Origin: Promicromonospora sukumoe 327MFSha3.1
GTDB taxonomy: Bacteria > Actinomycetota > Actinomycetes > Actinomycetales > Cellulomonadaceae
DNA: 64,000 nt
Assembly: GCF_000385135.1 (NCBI RefSeq)
Contig: NZ_ARQM01000014.1
Span: forward strand, 186,001 to 250,000
Reading direction: 5' to 3'
In this document: positions 30,159-37,031 of the stretch, piece by piece
Layout of the letters: each line of letters begins with the position of its first letter
How positions within the stretch are numbered: position 1 is the first letter of the stretch
The notes under the pieces: model-generated
Seen by the model: the letters and a program-made list of their open reading frames with translations, nothing else
What the model was told of the DNA's origin: nothing
Database searches by the model: none
Position numbers and translations under genes: made by a program

Positions 30159-30382
30159 CGCATCCTCTCCCACAATTCGGTGAGCGGAAGCGGTACGGCA
30201 GGTTGATGCAGGCGCATGAAACACGGCGAGTTCGGCACGGTGCGCAGGCGGGCAAGGACCCGCGGCGACCGGTACGACGTGGAACAGGGAACTCGCAAGG
30301 AACCCGGCCCCGAGACGGGGTGCGGACCCAGCAGAGCACGTCCGATCACGTACGACACAAGAACTGAGTGGGGTTACCAGGG
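30159..30382 (+). promoter_or_regulatory. Long 5' leader of the lyase gene, unassigned
   Basis: About 225 bases of leader with purine-rich segments (GGAACAGGGAACTCGCAAGG). A 54-codon Arg-rich frame (MQAHETRRVRHG...) ends 15 bases before the lyase ATG. It lacks the conserved core words of the c-di-AMP ydaO riboswitch. It could be a structured regulator, an upstream reading frame, or neither. Confidence 0.35.
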
Positions 30383-31915
30383 ATGAATGGCGAATCGATT
30401 CGACACTTCACGGACGGTCGCGTTCCCGACGCCGGGATCGCGCACCTCTTCAGCGTCGAGAACCGATTCCAGGCGCGCCTCGACGTCGAGGCCGCACTAG
30501 CGCTCGCGGAGGCCGAGGTCGGTCTGATCCCGGAGCCGGCCGGTGAGACGATCGCCCGGGCCGCACAGATCGAGAAGCTGGACCTCGACCGCGTGGCGGC
30601 CGAGACGGCGTCGGCCAGCCACCCGCTGATGCCGCTCATCGAGGAGTTCGCGCGCGTGGTCGGCCGCGAGCACGGCGGCTGGGTGCACTGGGGCGCCACC
30701 ACGCAGAACATCACCCAGACGGCGGACGTGCTCGTGCTGCGCGACGCGCACCGCGCGGTCAAGGACCTGCTCGCCAAGGTGCTGCGCGGCATGTCCAAGC
30801 AGGCGGAGGCGTCGGCCGCGGTGCCGATGGCGGGCCGCACGCACAGCCAGCACGCGGTGCCGGTCACGTTCGGCTTCAAGGTCGCGGTCTGGATCGACGA
30901 GCTCGCGGCGCACACCGACCGGCTCGAGCGCCTCGAGGACCGGCTCTTCCGAGTGCTGATGGGCGGCGCCGTCGGCACGTTCGCCTCGTTCGGCCCCGCC
31001 GGGCGCGAGGTCGAGCGCCGGGTCGCCAACCACCTGGGGCTCGGCACCATGCCGGTCCCGTCGCGCGCCATCAACGACGGCATCGTCGAGCTGGTGCTCG
31101 TCCTGGGCCAGGTCGCCGGCACCGCTGGCAAGATCGGCAAGGACATCTACTCGATGATGCAGCCGGAGTTCGGCGAGGCGTTCGAGCCCATCCCCGAGGG
31201 CACGGTCGGCAGCTCGACCATGCCGCACAAGCGCAACCCGCAGCTCGCCCTCGACCTGCTGTCGATGAGCGCCCAGCTCCGCGCGCTGGCGGCGCCCGCG
31301 CTCGAGTCGATGCAGCACGACCACGAGGCCAACGGCGGCATGACCGACCTCCTGGAGTCGACGGTCTCCCGCGCCACCGTCCTGGCCGGCGACATCCTGA
31401 CCCGCCTGGACGTCATCCTCGACGGGCTGGAGCTCGACGAGCAGCGCATGCGCGCCAACCTGGCGCTGAGCGAGGGGCTCATCGGCTCGGAGTCGCTGAT
31501 GATGGAGCTGGGCGAGCGCATCGGCCGCCAGAAGGCGCACGAGGTCGTGTACGAGGTGGCGCAGGAGTCGGCCGTCGGCGACGAGCAGTTCCTCGACCTG
31601 CTGGTGCGCAACACGACGGTGAGCGCCTACTTCGACCGGGCCGAGATCTGCCGCCTGATCGACCCGCGCGCCTACCTCGGCGAGAGCATCACGATCGCGC
31701 ACGACATGGCGCAGCACGCCCGCGCCGTCGCCGACCGGCTGGAGTTCAGCGCGCGCACGGCCAAGCCGGTGCCGCTCTTCGTCCGCGACACGGCGGACGA
31801 GCCGGCCGCCGAGCCGAGCGCCGGGGACGACGTCGACGTCGTCCGCCCGGTCGACGGCACCCGGGTCGCCGCGGCCGCGCGGACCCCGGAGGAGCTCCTG
31901 CTCGTCGGCCTGTAG
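30383..31915 (+). CDS. Fumarase/aspartase superfamily lyase (adenylosuccinate lyase or PcaB-like)
   Basis: 510 aa. The superfamily signature GSSTMPHKRNPQLALDLL is near residue 278. The active-site GRTHSQHAVPVTFG and the substrate-contact region HWGATTQNITQTADVLVLR are also present. The pattern is nearer to 3-carboxymuconate cycloisomerase and unassigned class II lyases than to PurB; a clear purB is at 57886. The C-terminal 50 residues after RTAKPVPLF are an acidic/Ala-rich tail. ATG 30383 is used, with GTG 30368 in frame just upstream. The Crp-like site suggests carbon-source control. Exact reaction unknown. Confidence 0.75.
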   Translation: MNGESIRHFTDGRVPDAGIAHLFSVENRFQARLDVEAALALAEAEVGLIPEPAGETIARAAQIEKLDLDRVAAETASASHPLMPLIEEFARVVGREHGGWVHWGATTQNITQTADVLVLRDAHRAVKDLLAKVLRGMSKQAEASAAVPMAGRTHSQHAVPVTFGFKVAVWIDELAAHTDRLERLEDRLFRVLMGGAVGTFASFGPAGREVERRVANHLGLGTMPVPSRAINDGIVELVLVLGQVAGTAGKIGKDIYSMMQPEFGEAFEPIPEGTVGSSTMPHKRNPQLALDLLSMSAQLRALAAPALESMQHDHEANGGMTDLLESTVSRATVLAGDILTRLDVILDGLELDEQRMRANLALSEGLIGSESLMMELGERIGRQKAHEVVYEVAQESAVGDEQFLDLLVRNTTVSAYFDRAEICRLIDPRAYLGESITIAHDMAQHARAVADRLEFSARTAKPVPLFVRDTADEPAAEPSAGDDVDVVRPVDGTRVAAAARTPEELLLVGL

Positions 31916-31939
31916 TCCTCGCTCCTCGCGGCTGTCCGG

Positions 31940-31979
31940 CCGTCGCTCCCGGGATCCGGCAGGTCCCCGGGAGCGACGG
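31940..31979. terminator. 14-bp perfect hairpin between convergent genes
   Basis: CCGTCGCTCCCGGG pairs perfectly with CCCGGGAGCGACGG around a 12-base loop, between the lyase and the RNase H-like gene that face each other. Confidence 0.8.
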
Positions 31980-32002
31980 GCGGGCAGCCGTTCGCGTTCC
32001 CG

Positions 32003-32617
32003 CTAGAAGAGGGTGTCCGACTCCCACGTGCGCCCGGCGCCGGCCCCGGTCACGACCGGCGTCGGCCGGGTCGCTGGTGCCACGCTCTCCCGGGGCTCCC
32101 CGGTCAGGCCCGCGCCCTGCAGCTCCGCGTCGGGGATCATCCCGCCGTCGGGCACCAGCATCTCGCCGACGCCGCCGCGTCCCGCGGCCCACTCCTCGGC
32201 GGCGAACCCGGCGAGCTGGTCGACCCGCTCGTTGTAGGGGTTGCCCACGTGACCGCGCACCCAGTGGAACCGGACGGGCCCGGTGCGCTCCGTGACGGCG
32301 CGGTCGATGTCCTGCACCAGGTCGAGGTTCGGCACGGGCTCGCCGGCGGGGGAGCGCCAGCCGTTGCGCTTCCACCCCTCCGACCACTCGGACACCGACC
32401 GGACGGCGTACTGCGAGCCGGACTCCACGAGCAGCGGCTCGCTGCCGGGATGCGCGTCGATGGCGCGGAGCAGAGCTGAGAGAGCCGCGACCTGATCGTT
32501 TCCCTGGGCCGCGCCGCCCGAGTCGAACTGCCCGCCCGCGTGGTTGATCCACGCCCATCCGATCGCGCCGCCCGGCGCGGCCGACCCGTGCGTGCTGACG
32601 ATGATCACGGCGTCCAT
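32003..32617 (-). CDS. RNase HI-fold protein lacking most catalytic residues
   Basis: 204 aa. Residues 1-140 align with RNase HI without large gaps: VIIVSTHGSAAPGG, VESGSQYAVRSVSEWSEGWKRNGW, PVPNLDLVQDID and HWVRGHVGNPYNERVDQLA. Compared with the E. coli catalytic set, Asp10 is His10, Glu48 is Ala (44/45), and Asp70 is Gly67; only His123 and Asp133 remain. The fold and the duplex-binding parts look kept, but two-metal catalysis should be lost. A 60-residue Pro/Gly-rich tail follows. The ATG at 32617 excludes the longer frame. It may bind RNA/DNA hybrids without cutting, or do something else. Confidence 0.85.
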   Translation of the reverse strand: MDAVIIVSTHGSAAPGGAIGWAWINHAGGQFDSGGAAQGNDQVAALSALLRAIDAHPGSEPLLVESGSQYAVRSVSEWSEGWKRNGWRSPAGEPVPNLDLVQDIDRAVTERTGPVRFHWVRGHVGNPYNERVDQLAGFAAEEWAAGRGGVGEMLVPDGGMIPDAELQGAGLTGEPRESVAPATRPTPVVTGAGAGRTWESDTLF

Positions 32618-32747: not shown

Positions 32748-33959
32748 GTGCCACACGTACCGTCCGACCCCGACCGTCGCTCGTCCGGCAGCACACCCAC
32801 GCCCGCGCAGCGCGCGCAGGGGCTGCACCCGTCCCGCCCGCGGACCCGCGCCGACATCCGGCGCTGGCGCCGCCTGCTGGCCGACGAGCGGGCCGAGGCG
32901 GCCGTCTACCGGGACCTCGCGGGCCGGCGCACGGGCGAGGAGCGCGAGATCCTGCTCGCCCTGGCGCGCGCGGAGAAGCGGCACGAGTCGCACTGGCTGG
33001 AGCTCCTGGGGCCCGACGTCGGCGCGCCCGTGCGCGGCGACCTGCGCACCCGCGCCCTCGGGTTCCTCGCCCGCCGGTTCGGCGGCGTGTTCGTGCTGGC
33101 GCTCGCCCAGCGGGCCGAGGCGCGCTCCTCCTACGCGCACGACGCCGACGCCACCGTGACCATGGCGGCCGACGAGCAGATCCACGAGGAGGTGGTGCGC
33201 GCGCTGGCCACCCGCGGGCGCAACCGGCTGTCGGGCACGTTCCGCGCCGCGGTCTTCGGCGCCAACGACGGGCTGGTGTCCAACCTCGCGCTCGTGCTCG
33301 GCATCGGCGCCTCCGGCGTCGCGACGAGCACCGTGCTGCTCACCGGGCTCGCGGGCCTCCTGGCCGGCGCGCTCTCGATGGGCGCCGGGGAGTTCGTGTC
33401 CGTCCGCTCGCAGCGTGAGCTGCTCGAGGCGTCGTCGCCGTCCCCCTCGGCCGACGACGCCCTGCCGCACCTCGACGTCGACGCGAACGAGCTGGCGCTG
33501 GTGTACCGGGCGCGCGGCATGGGCGCCGAGGAGGCGACGGCCCGCGCCGACGCCGTGCTCGCCCGGCTCGCGGTCGCGCCGGCGGGACGCGGCCTGCTCC
33601 TGGCCGACCCGGGTCCGGCGGCCGGGGCCGATCAGGAGGCCGGGACCGCGCCCGCCGCCGAGGTGGACGACCTGGAGACGCACGGCACCGCCTGGGGCGC
33701 CGCGGTGTCGTCGTTCCTCTTCTTCGCGTCGGGCGCGGTCGTCCCGGTGCTGCCCTACCTGTTCGGGCTGGACGGGCTCGCGGCTGTGGTCGTCGCGACG
33801 ACGCTGGTCGGGATCGCGCTGCTGGTGACGGGCGCCGTCGTCGGGCTGCTGTCCGGGACCTCGCCGCTCACCCGGGCGCTGCGGCAGATCGCGATCGGCC
33901 TCGGCGCGGCGGCCGCGACGTACGTGCTCGGCCTCGTGTTCGGAGCCACCGTCGGGTGA
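32748..33959 (+). CDS. Ferritin-like domain plus VIT1/CCC1 transporter
   Basis: 403 aa. Residues 35-150 form a ferritin-like four-helix region with metal ligands in DERAEAAVYRDLA, AEKRHESHWLELL, AQRAEARSSYA and DEQIHEEVVRAL. The rest is a VIT1/CCC1 transporter: RAAVFGANDGLVSNLALVLGIG, then GAGEFVSVRSQRELLEA, and three more membrane segments at the end. Such MbfA/VIT1-like fusions move iron or manganese out of the cytoplasm. GTG 32748 follows CATGAT by 6 bases, again leaderless in style. A hairpin overlaps the stop codon. Confidence 0.87.
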   Translation: MPHVPSDPDRRSSGSTPTPAQRAQGLHPSRPRTRADIRRWRRLLADERAEAAVYRDLAGRRTGEEREILLALARAEKRHESHWLELLGPDVGAPVRGDLRTRALGFLARRFGGVFVLALAQRAEARSSYAHDADATVTMAADEQIHEEVVRALATRGRNRLSGTFRAAVFGANDGLVSNLALVLGIGASGVATSTVLLTGLAGLLAGALSMGAGEFVSVRSQRELLEASSPSPSADDALPHLDVDANELALVYRARGMGAEEATARADAVLARLAVAPAGRGLLLADPGPAAGADQEAGTAPAAEVDDLETHGTAWGAAVSSFLFFASGAVVPVLPYLFGLDGLAAVVVATTLVGIALLVTGAVVGLLSGTSPLTRALRQIAIGLGAAAATYVLGLVFGATVG

Positions 33960-34184: not shown

Positions 34185-35696
34185 ATGTCGAAGTACGCGC
34201 TGACGAGCTCGGGGGACCACCTCCGCCGCTTCGTCGTGCGTGCCGTCGGGACCCTCACGCTCGGCGCCGCGAGCCTCGCGCTCGGCGTCTGCCTCGCAGC
34301 GCCCTCGAACGCCGCTGACCGGCCCACTCTCGGCTCGGTGCTCGGCGACACGGTGGAGGCGACGGTCCAGACCGTCGCGCGGACCACCGGCGCGCTCGGC
34401 TCGGTCACGAGGACCGACCAGACGACCACGGACAGCAACGGGTCGGCGACGAAGCCGACCGCGCCGGGGTCCGTGACCCCCGCGCCGGAGCCGTCGGCTC
34501 CCGCGCCCGCCCCGGCGGCCCAGGCCGCCGCGGAGCAGCCCGAGCCGGCCTCTGGTGCCGCCACCGGGAAGACGGCGGACGCCGCGGCTGCGAAGCCCGC
34601 CCCCGCCCGCCCCGCGCCGTCGTCGGCCGGGAAGGTGACGGAGCCCGTCACGAAGGTCGTCGACGAGGTCGCGGCAGCGACCGGCGGCCTGCTCGACCCG
34701 GTGACCGAGCCGGTCCGGACGGCGGTGACCGAGCCCGTGGGCGCGGCCGTCACGGAGATCACGAAGAAGCCGGTGGCGCAGGTCGCCGAGGTCGTCGAGC
34801 AGGTCGCGGACCCGGTCCTGAAGCCCGTCACGGAGCAGGTCGGCGCGGCCGTCAAGCCGGTCACCGAGCCGCTCGGCGACGTGCTCGCCCCGGTGACCGG
34901 CGTGGTCGGCCAGGTCGTCACGCCGCTGGCGCCCGTGCTCGGCGCGGTCACGGAGCCGCTGGCCCCGGTGACCGGCGGCCTGCTGGCCCCCGTGGTCGGC
35001 ATCGTCTCGCCGGTGACCGACGTCGTCGGCGGCGTGACCGCCCCGGTCCTGGGCGCGCTGAAGCCGGTGACCGCTCCGGTGACGGACGCGCTGTCGCCCG
35101 TGCTGACGCCGGTCGGCGAGGCCGTCGCCCCCGTGGGCGAGGTGCTCGCCCCGGTGGTCGAGCCGCTGAGCCCCGTCGTGGAGCCGCTCGCCCCGGTCAC
35201 GGGTGTGGTGCCCGCCGGGCCGTCCACGCCGGGCGAGCCGGCGACCGTGGTCCCGACCCAGCGGGTCGAGGACCTCTCAGAGCCGACGTACCCGGGGGAG
35301 CTGCAGGCCTCCGGTGACGCCGCGGGTGTCGTGGTCTGGACCTCGGCAGGGGTCCGGCACGCGATGCTCGACCTGGTGCAGGCCCCCGCCGTCGAGGCGG
35401 CCGTCGACACCGCGCAGACGCCGGGCGCCGTGGGCGTCGTCGAGGCCGGCGCGCCCGGCCTGCTCGGTGGCGGCCTCCCGCTCGCCGCGGGCGGCTTCGT
35501 CCCCGCGGTGGCCGCGTCGGGCGCCGGCGGCGTCCTGGGCGGTGGCGCACCGCAGCTCAAGGTGCCCGGCGGCGAGCTCCTCGCGATGCTCTCCGCCCTG
35601 CTGATCTTCCGGGCGCGCACCTGGCGCGTGTCGGCCGACGAGTCGCGGGCGAAGCTCGCGAGCAGCTACACCGACATCCCCGTCTCTCCTGCCTGA
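34185..35696 (+). CDS. Secreted Val/Pro-rich repetitive surface protein
   Basis: 503 aa. A signal peptide with a basic start (RRFVVRAVG) and hydrophobic core ends near AAPSNAADR. Residues 65-150 are Pro/Ala/Thr-rich. Residues 145-350 are a degenerate repeat built on PVTEPV, PLAPVTG and APVLGAV, probably an extended rod. Near the C-terminus GGELLAMLSALLIFRARTWR is a short hydrophobic segment followed by a charged tail. No LPxTG motif is present. I do not recognise a named family. It lies 81 bases upstream of a LAxTG protein on the same strand, so both may be co-expressed wall proteins. Confidence 0.7.
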   Translation: MSKYALTSSGDHLRRFVVRAVGTLTLGAASLALGVCLAAPSNAADRPTLGSVLGDTVEATVQTVARTTGALGSVTRTDQTTTDSNGSATKPTAPGSVTPAPEPSAPAPAPAAQAAAEQPEPASGAATGKTADAAAAKPAPARPAPSSAGKVTEPVTKVVDEVAAATGGLLDPVTEPVRTAVTEPVGAAVTEITKKPVAQVAEVVEQVADPVLKPVTEQVGAAVKPVTEPLGDVLAPVTGVVGQVVTPLAPVLGAVTEPLAPVTGGLLAPVVGIVSPVTDVVGGVTAPVLGALKPVTAPVTDALSPVLTPVGEAVAPVGEVLAPVVEPLSPVVEPLAPVTGVVPAGPSTPGEPATVVPTQRVEDLSEPTYPGELQASGDAAGVVVWTSAGVRHAMLDLVQAPAVEAAVDTAQTPGAVGVVEAGAPGLLGGGLPLAAGGFVPAVAASGAGGVLGGGAPQLKVPGGELLAMLSALLIFRARTWRVSADESRAKLASSYTDIPVSPA

Positions 35697-35777: not shown

Positions 35778-37031
35778 ATGGACAAGAACTTCCGACGTGC
35801 GCTGTACACGGCACTCGTGGCGGGCGGCCTCGTCGTCGTCGGCGCCACGGCGGCCCACGCCGCCGCCGGCGCCCCGCGCGACGCGGTCGCCCAGGAGGCC
35901 CCTGAGGCCACCGAAGGTGCCGCCTCGACCGGTGGTGCGTCCGTCGCGGCCGGCGTCGCGGTGGTCGACGGCGCCGTCGTCGATGGTGCCGCGGCGGTCG
36001 ACGGTGTAGCGGCCGACGGTGCTGCTGCCGACGGGGCCGCCGAGGCCGGTGTCGACGACGAGGACCTCGCCGGTGCGCTCGTGCGCGGCGACGTCGCCGG
36101 CGTCGTCGACGGGACGCTGGGTGCGGACGGTCTGGTCCACGGGATCCTCGACGGTCTCCTGCCCTCCGGTGCGGAGGAGCCGGGCAGCGAGCCCGGGACG
36201 GACGAGCCGGGCACTGACGAGCCGGGCACCGACGAGCCGGGAGCCGAGCAGCCTGGCACCGATGAGCCGGGCACCGAACCCGGCAACGACGGGCCTGACG
36301 CCGGTGAGCCGGGTCAGCCTGGTACCGATGAGCCGGGCACCGAACCCGGCACCGATGGTCCGGGCATCCTCGACCCGATCCTCGACCCCGACGACGGCGA
36401 GCCCGGCGTCGACCCCGGAACCGGCGAGTCCGGAACCGGCGAGCCCGGCTCCGAGAACCCCGGGCACCACACCCCCGGGTCCCACGGACCCGCGACCGGC
36501 GCCCCGGGCGCCGAAGGCCGCCCCGGACGGGGCGGGCTCGCGACGGGTCCGCGACCCGAGCGCGGAACAGATCTTCCCGAGGGCCTCGCCCCCGGGAGCA
36601 CGTACCCCGGCGAGCGGCCTGGCGCCGCGGCCGGTGTGCTCGGCGCGGTCGGCGTTGTCGCCGGCTCCGCGGCCGAGGCCGTCACCCCCGGCGCGGACGA
36701 TGCGCCGGAGGCCGGTTTGGACGCCGGACCGGCGTCCGAACCGGTGGCCGACGACGGCGCCCCGGACGGCGGCGTCGACATCAGCTGGGGTGACAAGGCG
36801 GTCGTCGTGCCGACGACCAACGACGGGGCGATCCTGTCGGGCGGCCTGAGCGAAGGCCTCCTCAACGGCACACCCAACGGGCTCGACGGGCAGGTGACGC
36901 CGGTGCCCGCACCGGGCGCGACCCTCGCCCAGACGGGCCCCATGATCACGGGGCAGCTCGCGCTGGTCTCGCTCCTTCTGGGGCTGGGACTCCTGGCGCT
37001 CCGTAGCCGTCGCCGTCGGATCGTGGTCTGA
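35778..37031 (+). CDS. LAxTG sortase-anchored repetitive surface protein
   Basis: 417 aa. A signal peptide ends near AAHAAAGA. Residues 45-105 are rich in VVDGA repeats. Residues 130-225 are an acidic repeat of TDEPG/TEPG units. A wall-sorting signal closes the protein: LAQTG, then a hydrophobic run (QLALVSLLLGLGLLAL) and RSRRRR. LAxTG is the recognition type of actinobacterial class E sortases. The protein is therefore expected to be covalently wall-linked, with the acidic repeat as a spacer. AAGGAGAG lies 6 bases before the ATG. Function unknown; aerial or biofilm surface roles are speculation. Confidence 0.82.
   Translation: MDKNFRRALYTALVAGGLVVVGATAAHAAAGAPRDAVAQEAPEATEGAASTGGASVAAGVAVVDGAVVDGAAAVDGVAADGAAADGAAEAGVDDEDLAGALVRGDVAGVVDGTLGADGLVHGILDGLLPSGAEEPGSEPGTDEPGTDEPGTDEPGAEQPGTDEPGTEPGNDGPDAGEPGQPGTDEPGTEPGTDGPGILDPILDPDDGEPGVDPGTGESGTGEPGSENPGHHTPGSHGPATGAPGAEGRPGRGGLATGPRPERGTDLPEGLAPGSTYPGERPGAAAGVLGAVGVVAGSAAEAVTPGADDAPEAGLDAGPASEPVADDGAPDGGVDISWGDKAVVVPTTNDGAILSGGLSEGLLNGTPNGLDGQVTPVPAPGATLAQTGPMITGQLALVSLLLGLGLLALRSRRRRIVV
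36184..36372 (+). repeat. 15-bp-period coding minisatellite (TDEPG repeat)
   Basis: Units of the type ACNGACGAGCCGGGC are repeated in tandem. A longer segment encoding TDEPGTEPG also appears twice (near 36258 and 36327). It encodes the acidic Pro/Gly spacer and is a candidate for length variation between strains. Confidence 0.75.

Follow-up and report, generated by a model that had tools for sequence, protein, structure and literature searches.

A putative genus-wide pseudoenzyme in Promicromonospora, derived from RNase HI, with a retained fold, basic handle and C-terminal motif

What would a protein with the RNase H fold be doing in a cell once most of the residues that cut RNA have been replaced? 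This question is raised by a gene at 32003..32617 on the minus strand of the window analyzed here, a stretch of 64,000 nucleotides from a Promicromonospora genome of 6.25 Mb. An earlier annotation made from the DNA letters (the sequence-only reading) described its product as an RNase H-fold protein lacking three of the four catalytic carboxylates, and raised as possible a non-cutting role in binding RNA/DNA hybrids or as a decoy. Pseudoenzyme claims are easy to make and hard to prove. At this locus such a claim can be measured, since the same genomes carry an intact paralogue, neighbouring genera have intact orthologues, and a similar loss has occurred in at least one other lineage.

The open reading frame is real and runs from an ATG start (32617..32003, minus strand) through 204 amino acids and a stop codon. 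The RNase_H domain of Pfam was matched with an E value of 2.5e-18 (67 bits against a cut-off of 25.8), and the top PDB sequence matches were entries of E. coli RNase HI (E 1.7e-19). An AlphaFold model built from 30 aligned sequences reached a pLDDT of at least 90 in 127 of the 204 residues; among its first 15 ten-residue blocks, 12 stood at 92 or above and the rest at 81-88, and the low values fell nearly all in residues 155-204, where pLDDT was below 50. A Foldseek search with this model put structures of E. coli RNase HI at the top of its list (E 4e-15; TM score on the target, 0.85). The RNase H type 1 fold and family assignment of the sequence-only reading was thus borne out by Pfam, PDB sequence matches and Foldseek, and the gene is treated here as a pseudo-RNase HI gene, type A rnhA. 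The scores against two NCBIfam models (75 and 79 bits) were below the cut-offs of 160 and 280, as were those of the intact orthologue from Antribacter (107 and 114 bits). The fold domain itself spans residues 1-145 (32183..32617, minus strand), 115 of which were invariant among 13 Promicromonospora genomes.

In an alignment with E. coli RNase HI, the positions equivalent to E. coli residues 10, 48, 70, 124 and 134 read His, Ala, Gly, His and Asp, i.e., H10, A45, G67, H123 and D133 in the numbering of the window protein. The corresponding codons, all on the minus strand, lie at 32588..32590 (His10, for the catalytic Asp10), 32483..32485 (Ala45, for Glu48), 32417..32419 (Gly67, for Asp70), 32249..32251 (His123, the retained His124) and 32219..32221 (Asp133, for Asp134). 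Across the genus, and in E. coli numbering, His10, Ala48 and His124 were found in 13/13 genomes, site 70 carried Gly in eight and Ser in five, and site 134 carried Asp in 12 and Glu in one. The alanine at site 48 was encoded by three synonymous codons (GCT, GCA and GCG). None of the 13 Promicromonospora proteins, that of the window included, has the full Asp10-Glu48-Asp70-Asp134 set of metal ligands. Both the replacement of three carboxylates (D10 to H, E48 to A, D70 to G) and the survival of the late histidine and aspartate (H124, D134) are therefore as originally described. Asp10, Glu48 and Asp70 are metal ligands in the established chemistry of RNase HI; because all three are gone, two-metal hydrolysis would be expected to be lost, as had been proposed, and the type A protein of Promicromonospora is predicted to be unable to cut RNA. 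It is highly improbable that it still works as an RNase H of low activity, with one metal held through His124 and Asp134. These two residues are indeed kept (in 13/13 and 12/13 genomes), but established chemistry makes metal ligands of all three residues that were lost, and several PDB structures of E. coli RNase HI with such sites changed are titled as active-site mutants.

The surroundings of the gene were informative about its origin. It is flanked by a convergent Lyase_1/ADSL_C (purB-like) gene at 30368..31915 on the plus strand and by a divergent VIT1 family gene at 32748..33959, also on the plus strand. The order VIT-rnhA-lyase was found in 9/9 Promicromonospora loci spanning 10 kb and in Antribacter soli, where type A is intact; the tenth named locus of the genus (L029), on a contig of 3.8 kb, includes the VIT neighbour only. 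This shared synteny indicates that the altered gene and the intact copy of the neighbouring genus are the same gene. Type A relatives were also read from another family, f4, of the same taxonomic order (14 loci, L259-L272); the catalytic residues are present in all of them and none ends in L-F, and these proteins are 325-369 residues long and carry a different C-terminal extension (roughly 180-220 residues).

The gap between the convergent genes holds a near-perfect hairpin (31929..31990; -54.3 kcal/mol, z -5.65), identified by folding as a possible shared terminator. The sequence-only reading had given the gene a terminator of its own; the hairpin is very stable, but it has no T-tract, lies in a gap shared with the lyase gene and could serve either gene. 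A terminator scan returned no site with a T-tract, and a promoter scan found nothing. The window protein matched 0 families of the PADLOC models at E 0.01, and a role as an anti-phage defence gene was rejected on this ground. Beyond the VIT1 gene lie two adjacent repeat-rich proteins with signal-like starts by eye, one at 34185-35696 (PVT/PVG repeats, no Pfam match) and the other at 35778-37031 (PGTDEPG repeats, with an apparent C-terminal membrane anchor).

The extent of the loss was assessed by searching 221 genomes of the host's bacterial family, from which 117 type A orthologues were read. The D-E-D-H-D residues are kept in 88 of these; the remaining 29 comprise the 13 Promicromonospora copies, four from genus g15, eight from one clade of genus g9 and four single cases. 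Replacement of D10, E48 and D70 in 13/13 Promicromonospora genomes, with all three unchanged in the 88 intact orthologues, is beyond chance, and a strain-specific loss was rejected since the sites are replaced in every genome of the genus. Conservation of H/A/G across genera, suggested earlier as a check, was not found: other genera mostly keep D-E-D-H-D, and H/A/G is fixed only within Promicromonospora, with Gly or Ser at site 70. In the eight-genome g9 clade, Asp10 is kept in 8/8 and Glu48 in 4/8. The same clade (L157, L158, L161, L163, L166, L168, L169, L171) displays a graded loss that includes Asp70 to Ala, Gly or Ser, Asp134 to Gln or Arg, Arg87 to Ala and Asn100 to His. Among the single cases, milder changes were seen in L110 (G032; Asp10 to Glu) and L130 (G160; Glu48 to Asp and Asp134 to Glu), and L211 (G077) has a disrupted N-terminal part; these three were excluded from the intact column counts, and they are possibly early steps of the same loss. 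The fourth, L212 (G124), is divergent beyond about residue 73; it was not usable and was excluded from the intact set and from the type B comparison described below.

The g15 copies bear on whether the active site has been rebuilt and not simply lost. His10, His123 and Asp/Glu133 of the window protein could in principle form a new two-histidine-one-carboxylate site, metal-binding or acid-base, in a pocket opened by Ala45 and Gly/Ser67, and serve in metal sensing or in another kind of nucleic-acid chemistry. His10, His124 and a carboxylate at site 134 do occur together in 13/13 Promicromonospora genomes, and Asp10 is replaced by His in 4/4 g15 genomes as well, but site 134 is Arg in g15, and no precedent for such a site was found among the matches listed from open-licence PMC papers. 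We consider this reading, drawn from residue patterns, to be very unlikely.

The number of losses was examined with an rpoB tree of 30 genomes and a type A gene tree built from 54 of the 117 orthologues, among them 6 of the 13 Promicromonospora sequences. In the rpoB tree, g3, Promicromonospora and g15 were grouped (97/99), Promicromonospora and g15 by themselves with only 78/70, and the eight-genome g9 clade (100/100) was separated from Promicromonospora by intact genera. The g3 genome G033 carries a type A protein identical to that of Antribacter soli. In the gene tree, Promicromonospora, whose stem measured 0.43 changes per site, joined the g3 copies (99/95), and g15 was placed beside the g9 clade (95/93), which may be due to long-branch attraction. 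A clade of Promicromonospora and g15 was not rejected (p-AU 0.389), and a single clade of all altered copies was borderline (p-AU 0.070). The species tree gives good support for two losses, and from both trees and the p-AU values the count of losses is two to three. A protein that acquires a different role would be expected to show such a long stem and then strong constraint.

That constraint was quantified with the GY+F3X4 codon model in IQ-TREE on the 13 Promicromonospora sequences. Omega was 0.062 for the whole type A protein and 0.033 for the domain of 145 codons; the intact type B rnhA, taken from these same genomes, gave 0.037. The log-likelihood for the altered domain was -1608.1, against -1892.8 with omega fixed at 1 and kappa at 2. 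In g15 (four genomes), omega was 0.016 for the altered type A domain versus 0.023 for type B, and intact type A genes of three other genera gave 0.018, 0.035 and 0.018. In g9, the altered clade gave 0.054 for type A (eight genomes) and 0.028 for type B (seven of those eight), and 0.025 was obtained for intact type A copies from that genus (eight genomes). Thus, in Promicromonospora the altered domain is under constraint as tight as that on intact enzymes, and in the g9 clade constraint is looser; this weaker constraint was counted against a uniform story. The retention of the altered protein as strictly as an intact enzyme suggests a job other than cutting RNA. The view that the gene is not a pseudogene was confirmed: the frame is open, with no internal stop, in 13/13 genomes and omega is low, and both a broken frame and relaxed constraint were rejected. 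An overlapping gene was considered as a cause of the low omega; on either strand, every alternative frame is interrupted in at least one of the 13 genomes. This exclusion is weak evidence because open stretches of at least 80 codons occur in each frame, as is usual at high GC.

The genome of the window also carries a second rnhA with D-E-D-H-D (type B, on contig C10) and a single match to rnhB, so that the search for another intact RNase H gene, proposed with the original annotation, was answered in the affirmative. Type B is intact in 13/13 Promicromonospora genomes and in all 30 loci read. Of the 28 genomes whose type A is altered, these loci represent 26, namely 13 Promicromonospora, four g15, seven of the eight in the g9 clade, G160 and G032. 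At E under 1e-60, type B was present in 28/28 of the altered genomes versus 25/88 of the intact ones (Fisher p 1.5e-12, ancestry uncorrected); the real support for this association is much weaker because the altered genomes represent about six separate events at most. The association is what would be seen if a redundant type A gene were slowly drifting towards loss after type B had taken over, and the graded losses and higher omega of the g9 clade, the Gly/Ser drift at site 70 and the one Asp134 to Glu change in Promicromonospora point the same way. Slow decay is nevertheless a quite unlikely account overall, and for Promicromonospora it is strongly disfavoured: omega values of 0.033 and 0.016 in two altered genera are as low as those of their intact type B genes, and none of the 13 genomes has an in-frame stop.

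If the protein is maintained and does not cut, the surface that it retains becomes relevant. The intact orthologues have 68 alignment columns that are invariant in at least 86/88 sequences, and 11 of these are lost in all 13 Promicromonospora copies (D10, C13, L14, N16, N44, E48, D70, C77, T92, A93 and A133). The losses are concentrated in the catalytic and RNA-contact groove, at 7/18 groove columns versus 4/50 elsewhere (Fisher p 0.005), which is not a clean test because the groove set, 18 columns based on RNase HI contacts, was drawn after the losses had been seen. All three altered lineages, i.e., Promicromonospora, g15 and the g9 clade, have lost N16, N44 and D70. Asn16 and Asn44 belong to the RNA-contact side of RNase HI, and they are present in 87/88 and 88/88 intact orthologues, respectively. 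In 13/13 Promicromonospora genomes, neither is kept: site 16 is Ala with an adjoining two-residue gap, and site 44 is Asp or Glu (Asp41 in the window protein, codon 32495..32497, minus strand). The equivalent of T43 is Asn in 11/13. With N16, T43 and N44 altered, affinity for hybrids may be low or absent.

The equivalents of W81, W85, K86, W90, N100, W120 and H124 are retained in 13/13 Promicromonospora genomes, and the basic handle with W81, W85 and W90, together with N100, is encoded at 32327..32386 on the minus strand. The earlier description of a conserved hybrid-binding surface thus stands for the handle side and fails for the RNA-contact side, which is eroded. In a study of a foamy-virus RT, for its RNase H domain and for human RNase H1, the phosphate pocket and the channel between the core and the basic protrusion are described as holding the DNA strand (PMC8387031). 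By this logic, the DNA side of the Promicromonospora protein would be kept in part and the RNA side would not.

Beyond the fold domain, residues 146-168 (32114..32182, minus strand; around GVGEMLVPD.GMIPDAEL) form a segment in which 20/23 positions are invariant in the 13 Promicromonospora genomes. They are followed by a variable linker of low confidence, residues 169-196 (32030..32113, minus strand; pLDDT under 50, 2/28 invariant), and by the C-terminal motif W-x3-TLF (32006..32029, minus strand), recognized by sequence comparison; five of the last eight residues are invariant in the genus. An ending in L-F, L-F-D or L-W-D was found in 115/117 type A orthologues, the exceptions being L154 and the unusable L212, and an L-F/L-W tail in 26/26 altered copies counted (13 Promicromonospora, four g15, eight of the g9 clade and G160). 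The motif is not specific to the altered form since intact orthologues have it too. Among 19 loci of relatives from other families, six reached a stop codon, and one of these six (L317), from a third family (f3), ends in TLF, which suggests that the motif may be older than the host's bacterial family. QxxLF-like motifs bind the sliding clamp DnaN. In the same genome, DnaE carries QFDLF and SSB ends in DDPPF; the type A tail, xTLF(D), loosely resembles both, and neither a mimic of the SSB tail nor a canonical clamp motif fits it fully.

Altogether, these observations are best explained by a genus-wide pseudoenzyme that would have arisen from a normal RNase HI (type A rnhA). In genomes where type B supplies an intact rnhA, type A has lost three of its four metal ligands together with RNA-contact residues, and has retained the predicted fold, the basic handle and the L-F motif on a flexible tail. 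The basic handle of RNase HI borders the DNA-strand channel, and DNA or a hybrid could still be bound through it, as the tail docks the protein on a partner, which may be the sliding clamp or another protein of replication and repair or of transcription. This reading from sequence, i.e., a non-cutting adaptor or placeholder that binds DNA or hybrids and is placed on a protein partner by its tail, is given a probability of roughly 0.6. The drift between Gly and Ser at site 70 and the one genome with Glu134 were counted against it. Its main rival, less probable but deserving consideration, is that nucleic-acid binding has been lost as well and that the folded domain and C-terminal motif are now purely a scaffold for protein-protein contacts. 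RNA-contact and phosphate-pocket residues have indeed disappeared along with the catalytic ones, and the tail motif and the 146-168 segment are conserved in the genus, but a scaffold would have no need of the handle tryptophans and N100, which are kept in 13/13 genomes, although these may serve folding. The adaptor or placeholder reading points to a non-cutting role of RNase HI, which perhaps already exists in those type A enzymes that are intact and carry this tail.

By descent the protein would be classed as a pseudo-RNase HI and, judging from its residues, not as a functional RNase HI; inactive RNase HI as such is already known. No report of the Promicromonospora protein was found among the matches listed in full-text searches of open-licence PMC papers. 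Compared with bacterial RNase HI (E. coli rnhA, PF00075), it shares the fold, the handle, His124/Asp134 and the overall sequence, and differs in the replacement of Asp10, Glu48, Asp70, Asn16 and Asn44 and in its L-F tail. The connection domain of retroviral and LTR-element reverse transcriptases is also a degenerate RNase H fold, a non-catalytic module that contacts nucleic acid, but it is part of a polyprotein and has a separate origin. Dead RNases H made in the laboratory as hybrid sensors have a catalytic carboxylate changed, with the fold kept and the binding residues intact by design, whereas in Promicromonospora type A the RNA-contact side is changed too. A further natural comparison is the RNase HI of Bacillus subtilis, which PMC1950709 describes as inactive, as belonging to a group without the basic handle and as encoded in a genome with other RNases H. 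The same paper discusses that redundant RNase HI genes may become non-functional or gain new functions, a subject on which the present case bears. Both proteins are RNase HI homologues in genomes with other RNases H, the inactivity of the window protein being predicted. As that paper describes the B. subtilis group, an inactive RNase HI of its type does not fit here, since the handle is absent there, whereas Promicromonospora keeps the handle and loses the carboxylates.
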